From assembly GCF_024518835.1 (NCBI RefSeq), contig NZ_JANIGO010000001.1, forward strand, positions 868,001 through 932,000: a DNA stretch of 64,000 nt, read 5' to 3'. A program made the position numbers and the translations under genes. Shown piece after piece: positions 45,862-47,674 of the stretch. Under the pieces are notes generated by a model. The model was not told the origin of the DNA. It saw only the letters and a program-made list of their open reading frames with translations, and ran no database searches. The number at the start of each line of letters is the position of its first letter. The first letter of the stretch is position 1. This DNA comes from Limnobacter humi. Its GTDB lineage: Bacteria > Pseudomonadota > Gammaproteobacteria > Burkholderiales > Burkholderiaceae_B.

Positions 45862-46560
45862 ATGTCTTCCAATATGAGTTTGACCAAGACGGAAACAGCG
45901 GTGAAAGCAGAAGGGCGACGTTACCGGGGGGTGTCCAATGAAGTACGGACCGCCGAGCGGCGAATGAAGCTGATTGAAGCGGGCATCAAGATTTTTGGTT
46001 CTAGCGGTTATCACGCAGCCACGGTCAAGGGCTTGTGCCAGGAAGCCGGGCTGACGGAACGGTATTTCTACGAAAGCTTCCCCAATGCCGAGGCCTTGTT
46101 TACCGCCTGCTATTTGCACATCACCGACACCTTGCGGGGCCGCTTGCAGCAGGTGCTGCTGGGCATGGGTGATGAAGGGTTGGAAGAGGCCACCACCACA
46201 GGTCTGACCGTGTTTTTTACGCAGTTCAAGGAACAACCCGAAGCGGCGCGCATTCTGCTGGTGGAGGTGTTGACCGTGAACCGGCACCTGGAAGAACTGT
46301 CATTGAGAACCCTTTACAGCTTTGTGGAAATGCTGGAGGCGCTGGCCAAACCGCTGATTGAACAGCGCGCCAAGGGCGACCCAGATGTACACCTGGATTC
46401 CACACTGTTGGCATCGGGCCTGGTGGGCTCGGTGTTGTACATGGCTGCCCGCTGGGCGCTGGAAGGGTGCCGTCAGCCAGTGGAGCATGTGGTTGAAAAC
46501 GCCATGCTGATTTTCCGGGGAGTGGGTTTCAGTTTGGTGGGTGGGATGCCACGGGGTTAG
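45862..46560 (+). CDS. TetR family transcriptional regulator
   Basis: 232 residues from ATG 45862 (ATG 45874 possible; the open frame begins at 45751 but that would cross the operator). N-terminal helix-turn-helix: AGIKIFGSSGYHAATVKGLCQEAGLTERYFYESF (longer than 20, so key parts are GYHAATVKGLC and ERYFYESF). The C-terminal helical ligand domain is unlike well-known members. It is divergent from the SDR pair and the palindromes between them suggest it represses the pair and itself. Confidence 0.88.
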   Translation: MSSNMSLTKTETAVKAEGRRYRGVSNEVRTAERRMKLIEAGIKIFGSSGYHAATVKGLCQEAGLTERYFYESFPNAEALFTACYLHITDTLRGRLQQVLLGMGDEGLEEATTTGLTVFFTQFKEQPEAARILLVEVLTVNRHLEELSLRTLYSFVEMLEALAKPLIEQRAKGDPDVHLDSTLLASGLVGSVLYMAARWALEGCRQPVEHVVENAMLIFRGVGFSLVGGMPRG

Positions 46561-46688
46561 TGGTGCTACTACACAGATGGTATGCCCTGCGCGGTCACAC
46601 CCCTTGGCGACGGCCAATCTGTAGTTCAAAACCTGAGCCTCGCGATCGCTGAGGTCGCCCCTCCAAAAAGCGAGTCGGGATCGACCTC

Positions 46689-46711
46689 TGAACTGACCGT
46701 TGGTCAGTTCA
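46689..46711. repeat. Perfect hairpin, 10 pairs
   Basis: TGAACTGACC, loop GTT, GGTCAGTTCA. It has no adjacent T-run. Located in the gene-free region after the TetR gene. Confidence 0.7.
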
Positions 46712-46894
46712 CCGCGCTTGCTTGGCACGGTTTTGCAGATTGTCCTGAATGTCGCTGCAGGGGAGATGAACCGCGCAGGCCAACAAACCGGTGCAGCCTA
46801 CATGCTCGGTGCCATAAGCCCCGGCAATACCGGTATGCCCGGCGCCGAACAGTCAGCCACCCGATCGGCTTGACCCGCACAGCATTCGAACAGA

Positions 46895-46938
46895 CGGACC
46901 GAGATGTTTGAGCCACGTAGTGGCGAGTTCTCGGTCCG
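46895..46938. repeat. Nested perfect hairpin, 10 plus 5 pairs
   Basis: Outer arms CGGACCGAGA and TCTCGGTCCG; inner arms GCCAC and GTGGC around GTA. Such a long compound stem is the strongest sign of RNA structure in the window. Confidence 0.7.
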
Positions 46939-47046
46939 GTTTGAAGGCGCGGGGCAACCTTTACATTGGGGGGCGTTCGGCACGGGCGGCCGGTGTTGCT
47001 GGGAGCAATAAACTGGCACAAGTTGCCGGTGTTGCAAACAGGAAAT

Positions 47047-47076
47047 AAAAAAACCCCGGCATCAAACCGGGGTTTT
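47047..47076 (-). terminator. Rho-independent terminator of the cytochrome c gene
   Basis: Stem AAAACCCCGG / CCGGGGTTTT with a seven-base loop. On the minus strand the stem is followed by seven T, so it ends the minus-strand gene at 47114. It is weaker in the plus direction. Confidence 0.85.
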
Positions 47077-47113: not shown

Positions 47114-47674
47114 TTACTTTGCAGCGGGGACAGCCGGTGCAGCAGCACCATCCGCGGCGGGCGCAGCAGCGGGTGCTGCAGGCTCAGGCGCTTTGAAGTT
47201 GGCACCGGCTTCGTTGGCCATATAGGCCACCGCGCGGCCTACTTCAACATCGTCCAGGTCGGGGTTGCCACCCTTGGCTGGCATGGCGCGAATGCCTTCT
47301 ACCGCATGTTTCCACAGGGTGTCGAAACCTTGCGACAGGCGGGGCCCCCACTGGCCTTTGTCACCAAACTTGGGTGCACCGGCAGCACCGGCACCGTGAC
47401 AGGCTGCGCAAGCGCCTGTGTACACTTCCTGGCCAGTCTTCAGCACCTTGGGTGCGTTGGCATCCAGAAACTCCACGGAGCCTACCGGCTTCAAGCGTTC
47501 GGCAATGGCCTCGTCAGTCATGGCGTTGCTGCCAGCGGCGGGCTTGTTGCCAGTGCTGACATAGTTGGCCAGCAGGATAATGATGAAAACCGGCACCACA
47601 AAGGAAGCCACAATGGCCACAATCAGCTGCTTGGGTGTTTTAAACGGCAGTTCGTGTTCGTTGGAGTCGCTCAT
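47114..47674 (-). CDS. Membrane-anchored cytochrome c5-like protein
   Basis: 186 residues. One N-terminal membrane helix (~18-40) anchors a periplasmic c-type haem domain with CAACH and a distal Met near GIRAMPAKGG. The sequence DKGQWGPRL and VAYMANEAG are typical of the cytochrome c5 family. An Ala/Pro-rich C-terminal tail of ~30 residues is low complexity. It is a small electron carrier. It is divergent from the cytochrome b561 gene and ends at a good terminator. Confidence 0.92.
   Translation of the reverse strand: MSDSNEHELPFKTPKQLIVAIVASFVVPVFIIILLANYVSTGNKPAAGSNAMTDEAIAERLKPVGSVEFLDANAPKVLKTGQEVYTGACAACHGAGAAGAPKFGDKGQWGPRLSQGFDTLWKHAVEGIRAMPAKGGNPDLDDVEVGRAVAYMANEAGANFKAPEPAAPAAAPAADGAAAPAVPAAK

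Follow-up and report, generated by a model that had tools for sequence, protein, structure and literature searches.

A hairpin-rich intergenic region of Limnobacter humi is one copy of a folded dispersed repeat, probably a mobile DNA element confined to the genus as far as sampled

The window analysed here is a stretch of 64,000 nucleotides from Limnobacter humi (positions 868,001 to 932,000 of contig NZ_JANIGO010000001.1, forward strand). A TetR gene (Pfam TetR_N) ends at position 46560 of this stretch, and the gap that begins there holds a hairpin-rich sequence at 46561-47045; the other neighbour of the gap is a cytochrome c gene on the minus strand (47114-47674), so that the region is placed between convergent genes. 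An initial annotation had described the gap as gene-free and rich in hairpins, with two perfect stems, and as possibly encoding a new structured RNA. Both stems lie where it had put them: 46689-46698 pairs with 46702-46711 and 46895-46904 with 46929-46938, each in 10 perfect pairs, and the second stem encloses a nested GCCAC/GTGGC stem. The 485 bases are indeed rich in hairpins and fold far better than shuffled sequences, with an MFE of -244 kcal/mol and a z-score of -9.22 on the plus strand and a z-score of -7.24 on the minus strand, none of 100 shuffles being as good in either case. The annotation had also proposed a search with Rfam models. When Rfam was screened at gathering and at permissive thresholds, no family reached its gathering score within the window, and the best of the weak matches near the region, anti-hemB (27.4 bits versus a cut-off of 49.5), fell on the neighbouring terminator.

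The element proper spans approximately 46585-47036 (about 450 bp), with the terminator-like hairpin outside it (Table 1). It is a compound element, as the annotation had offered as one option, and consists of two large hairpins, inverted with respect to each other, together with tandem copies of their outer arms. In hairpin A, which has a forked tip, 7 of the 10 pairs of the first fork have changed on both sides among the aligned copies, and the letters of the second fork vary widely among copies while its pairing is kept. Close to the base, the second hairpin shows the same asymmetric internal loop as hairpin A. Since in its own-genome form it carries a CTGACT loop on the minus strand, we infer that it is an inverted hairpin A (A'). 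The nested pairs within its perfect stem are changed from C-G and A-U to G-C and C-G in 2 of 15 copies. The tandem units contain a direct repeat, D2, whose two members (46979-46999 and 47015-47035) are 81% alike, and the number of such outer-arm units varies among other copies.

Table 1. Positions of the hairpins, arms and tandem units in and next to the element, numbered from the first letter of the window.
Feature	Position	Strand	Basis or detail
Hairpin A, long and imperfect, with forked tip	46585-46779	+	Sequence reading; copies aligned
Outer arms of hairpin A, CCTGCGCGGT and ACCGCGCAGG	46586-46595 and 46770-46779	+	
Core of hairpin A	46607-46755	+	Match of model R1, 159 bits
First fork of hairpin A, stem GAGGTCG/CGACCTC, conserved loop CCCTCCAAAAA...GTCGGG	46651-46688	+	Helix 4 of alignment A1
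Second fork of hairpin A (first perfect stem of the initial annotation)	46689-46711	+	Helix 5 of alignment A1
Second hairpin (A' or module B)	46818-46999	-	Alignment and folding of 15 copies
Perfect stem with nested 5-pair stem, within the second hairpin	46895-46938		
Two tandem units, 36 bases apart	46979-47035		Derived from the second hairpin's outer arm
Terminator-like hairpin AAAACCCCGG/CCGGGGTTTT where the cytochrome c gene ends	47050-47076		Outside the element

The same repeat is dispersed over the chromosome. BLAST returned 40 matches in the window's own genome, which manual merging reduced to about 30 places. The best match is 84% identical over most of the length. Complete copies are made of hairpin A, a spacer, the second hairpin and 36-base tandem units taken from the outer arm of the latter; many of the copies in this genome are internally deleted or reduced to one hairpin. 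A covariance model of hairpin A built from 19 sequences (R1) matched 13 of the 16 Limnobacter genomes, with 4-35 matches each. A model of another subfamily built from 29 sequences (R2) also matched 13 of the 16, with 1-89 matches each and 521 in total, the highest numbers being found in G009 (89) and G010 (87). The genomes of the genus without matches were G002 (85% complete), G011 (65%) and G015 (93%). Outside Limnobacter, the repeat was found with R1 and R2 in none of the genomes of the family and order samples: R1 matched 13 of 250 genomes in the family sample and 2 of 300 in the order sample, and R2 matched 1 of 399 in the order sample, all of these belonging to the genus itself (searches of more than 40 genomes were run with stricter filters, by which weak matches may be lost). 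The possibility of a plasmid or phage origin was rejected, as distant blastn gave no match to the repeat in plasmid and phage collections. Listings of open-access papers on repeats, transposable elements or noncoding RNA of Limnobacter, and on similar hairpin repeats, gave no account of the element.

In two relatives, G008 and G010, the layout runs from tandem 5'-arm copies through hairpin A and a spacer to an inverted A-type hairpin (A') followed by tandem 3'-arm copies, and pairs of A with an inverted A' occur at many of their loci. Most of the hairpins examined there have, near the base, one base of the 5' side opposite a TGA-containing stretch of the 3' side. A sub-group (L147 and L116 in G010, L103 and L104 in G008) has a 5' unit of its own, like TTGCTCAGGCG.ATGCCCTCTTCG, with several repeats of it in L147, and a long run of GGGCT units separates the hairpin from the adjoining gene at L154 (G010:C1:2968400-2972700).

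In a few copies, genes replace the short spacer between the paired hairpins, and three such intervals are 1.0-1.5 kb long. The interval of G010 at L157 (L157:2348-3299) contains, next to a lipoprotein-like gene, one for an NlpC/P60 protein (PF00877, E 4e-16), and that of G010 at L150 (L150:526-1688) encodes a permuted papain-like amidase of the C92 YaeF/YiiX type (PF05708, E 1e-7) next to a signal-peptide-like gene. The interval of G004 at L079/L064 (L079:1961-2553) holds a 132-amino-acid protein of no family and a short signal-peptide-like open reading frame. A likeness of the 132-residue protein to metallopeptidases, noticed by eye, was set aside, as it matched no Pfam or NCBIfam family. Judging from their sequences, with the secreted or lipoprotein character of the partners read by eye from the N-termini, these gene pairs may be effector and immunity pairs. 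The three long intervals noticed (two of G010, one of G004) contain no transposase.

The pairing of the hairpins was assessed in two alignments, A1 (19 chosen sequences) and A3 (29 sequences), each representing a subset of the copies; the recombinant copy L024 and some near-identical copies of the own genome were left out of A1. In A1, 24 of 38 pairs had both partners changed and still paired, and pairing held in 96.1% of the cells, values that none of 500 shuffles reached; for the number of additional pair types, 17 of 500 shuffles did so. The corresponding figures for A3 were 28 of 51 pairs and 95.6%, and no shuffle of 500 reached the alignment on any of the five measures. Sliding the partners by 1-3 columns lowered pairing to 31-44% in A1, and slid partners gave 30-47% in A3, a control that is biased toward the structures because these were drawn from the same alignments. 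In the own genome, the second hairpin showed both-side changes at 3 of its 52 pairs, a low number explained by the likeness of the 15 copies.

Single copies pointed in the same direction, with z-scores of -4.4 to -8.2 for A hairpins of G008 (n = 4), -4.2 to -9.9 for those of G010 (n = 7) and -6.2 to -7.3 for second hairpins of the own genome (n = 3), versus -0.7 to 1.0 for control stretches from the flanks (n = 8), one at -3.1 excepted. The A hairpins of the own genome were uneven (-0.8 to -8.2, n = 6), two of them being weak (-0.8 and -1.1). The hairpins are thus kept folded by compensatory change. The strand that folds is less clear, as the counts of G-U versus A-C pairs lean toward the complement of A, without deciding. 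What the annotation had called selection on RNA structure therefore holds as far as a selected folded structure is concerned, and not for an RNA gene belonging to this gap.

We considered the possibility that the region is a decayed protein-coding gene, which the annotation had raised for a Gly/Ala-rich peptide at 46723-46885. A 109-amino-acid open frame does extend over 46582-46911. Yet other copies match this frame piecewise, in differing frames and in some cases with stops, Pfam is blank on it, and the paired bases covary; a decayed gene can be dismissed with near certainty.

At the TetR-cytochrome c junction, the element was missing from 13 of 13 readable other Limnobacter genomes, in which the TetR gene is followed by a terminator or by the cytochrome gene; 12 of these 13 empty junctions have a similar terminator. 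The loci of G002 and G011, which have other neighbours or weak matches, were left out of this count. Among 16 loci, 15 of them from other genomes, R1 and R2 matched only the window's own. Therefore, the window copy is a lineage-specific insertion, loss in every relative being the less likely alternative, and what had been proposed as a structured RNA gene of the gap belongs to a dispersed repeat, of which it is a single copy. Of the two properties for which the annotation had looked to relatives, conservation of the locus is absent and compensation is strong, the latter being seen among copies. The junctions of the element are too diverged for a target site duplication to be read.

A search for a possible mobiliser was largely negative. 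The Y1 transposase (PF01797) was undetected in 15 of the 16 genomes of the genus, including that of the window, the sole Y1 genes being two in G009 (G009:C97:6405-6767, L080; G009:C102:879-1244, L081). G009 is thus both the Y1 carrier and the genome with the highest R2 count; G010, with its 87 matches, is without Y1. Membership of the REP/RAYT system was rejected on this distribution of PF01797 (1 of 16 genomes, G009 only). Reverse transcriptase (PF00078) was undetected in 11 of the 16 genomes, including G000, G008, G009 and G010, and a retro-element dependent on it was likewise rejected, as the family was detected in just 5 of the 16.

Copies of the own genome lie mostly at the 3' ends of genes: 16 are convergent, 9 and 4 are in line and 1 is divergent (n = 30), according to a simple longest-ORF rule that mislabelled the gene to the right of the window copy. 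In G008 it is the right-hand gene that points toward the element (23 of 26), and in G000 the left-hand gene, indicating that the orientation of the element to its neighbours differs between genomes. With respect to replication, G008 and G010 both start at dnaA, and the GC skew flips sign at about 1.6-1.85 Mb, although among ten samples of G008 the one at 3.0 Mb is weakly positive. The elements follow the replichore in 24 of 26 cases in G008 (p 1e-5; 23 of 25 without L106, whose orientation was inferred from A' alone). L107 is counted among the exceptions, as an A-type hairpin there lies on the strand that does not conform. In G010 they do so in 39 of 57 (p 0.0075), and in 34 of the 45 with an A hairpin above 120 bits (p 0.0008). 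As G008 and G010 have loci in common, these two results cannot be treated as independent. In the own genome, the origin of which is unmapped, the skew of the flanks in element orientation was +0.017 (20 of 29 positive) versus -0.022 in G008. Replichore polarity, seen in G008 and G010 and not in the own genome, may thus not be general.

Places were shared between genomes more readily than sequence. Junctions were compared with 600 bases each side of hairpins masked, using 31 loci of G010 (versus the 57 clusters into which its matches were grouped for polarity). Of the 26 G008 junctions, 16 hold the element in G010 too, with genes matching on both sides, and orientation is kept at 12 of 14 readable pairs, one of the 14 being inferred from A'. 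Seven of 30 loci of the own genome (L017, L021, L022, L026, L032, L034 and L036) have a junction in common with G008 or G010. The likeness of A hairpins was 0.685 at shared versus 0.681 at unshared junctions (15 pairs, p 0.31), and 0.687 versus 0.673 in a second comparison (16 pairs, p 0.051), where p became 0.24 without L101/L144, one clearly inherited pair; L106/L156 was left out of the likeness test. Copies within a genome were more alike (0.83 in G008, 0.76 in G010) than orthologous pairs (0.69). Gene conversion or repeated re-insertion could be the source of such shared places with unshared sequence. At the junction L026/L107/L159, the same two genes flank the hairpin in at least 8 Limnobacter genomes, including G001, G003, G007, G009 and G012, and this locus could be the oldest of all or the one from which the others came.

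These findings suggest that the region is probably one copy of a non-autonomous, MITE- or REPIN-like mobile DNA element, confined to Limnobacter as far as sampled. In line with what defines a MITE, the element is multi-copy and non-coding and the site of the window copy is empty in relatives. In the mechanism that we propose, each end would, as single-stranded DNA, form a large hairpin that is forked and has an asymmetric internal loop close to the base. An enzyme encoded at some other place would recognise this fold, cut the element and insert it, and the surviving copies would be found mostly at gene 3' ends, where they would cause little damage. If the enzyme reads shape, the free drift of the stems with pairing intact would be explained, and the replichore-following orientation in G008 and G010 fits elements that target single strands, such as IS608, for which PMC6006769 describes single-strand targeting and a lagging-strand preference. 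Counting against mobility are the scarcity of Y1 and reverse transcriptase genes, the shared junctions, the polarity of the own genome and the weak folding of some of its A copies. More tentatively, the repeat might represent a new class of mobile element, with large forked-hairpin ends recognised by shape, a mover outside the Y1/RAYT and reverse transcriptase families, homogenisation within each genome, partly inherited junctions and orientation, and the ability to hold gene pairs of an enzyme and a secreted partner.

Two other explanations do not require movement to be the main property of the repeat. The hairpins could act as RNA, at transcript ends or by binding proteins, as an expressed structured RNA family or as 3' UTR elements whose spread is secondary. 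The RNA-type covariation across many copies, the placement at gene ends and the positions that are conserved in part are all compatible with this. Yet covariation and the absence of an Rfam match are by themselves no proof of an RNA gene, and the copy in the window is missing in all 13 readable relatives, the orientation to neighbouring genes is left-hand in G000 and right-hand in G008, the hairpins come in inverted pairs, no Rfam family is matched, and the pair counts lean to the complement of A; we regard an RNA family as unlikely. Slightly less likely again is that the repeats are resident elements of the chromosome, for instance sites for nucleoid or replication proteins, which keep their place and orientation and are made alike by gene conversion. 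The junctions common to G008 and G010, with their kept orientation, fit resident elements better than free movement, and the replichore polarity of two genomes and the greater likeness of copies within a genome than between orthologues also argue for them. In contrast, few loci of the own genome have their junction occupied in G008 or G010 as well, relatives lack the element at the window junction, polarity in the own genome is opposite or absent, and G015, although 93% complete, has no element that could be found. A mobile element thus remains the reading that we favour.

The genus contains hundreds of related hairpins that evolve by compensatory change. This system makes it testable whether an enzyme recognises DNA by its fold, how a dispersed repeat keeps its places and yet loses sequence identity between species, and whether the ends of an element offer small gene pairs a place to insert.

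Integron attC sites are recognised as folded single strands of DNA. The same is proposed for the Limnobacter element, which in this respect resembles attC and the ends of IS200/IS605 elements; it differs from both in that the examined intervals contain no transposase or integrase and in that its fold is much larger. Pneumococcal BOX elements are modular dispersed repeats with stable folds and a variable number of tandem units, and the Limnobacter element, which is modular, dispersed and stably folded and has variable tandem units, can be set beside them by description, but the organism and the layout are unrelated. With MITEs, whose size is about 100-400 bp according to the part of PMC3116915 that deals with them, the element, at about 450 bp, is comparable in size, and it shares inverted terminal parts and copies that are mostly gene-free. 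Unlike MITEs, it has a conserved internal fold rather than plain terminal repeats, as well as tandem arm units, and no parent transposon was found for it in the three long intervals of G010 and G004. The closest comparison is with REPIN and REP-BIME elements, which, in the sections of PMC3116915 and PMC6006769 that describe them, are moved by RAYT (TnpA-REP), occur in many intergenic copies as inverted pairs of hairpins, and are non-autonomous and fold-based. The Limnobacter element is likewise intergenic, multi-copy and non-autonomous, with hairpins in inverted pairs and a dependence on fold. Its hairpins, in contrast, are about 140-200 nt long with a forked tip, versus 21-65 nt with a GTAG-type foot in REP (lengths from the same sections of PMC6006769; the difference was judged on length), a RAYT/Y1 gene is undetected in 15 of 16 Limnobacter genomes, and stems are swapped wholesale between copies. 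As the RAYT/Y1 and size features do not agree, we do not file the element under REPIN, although it would work like one.
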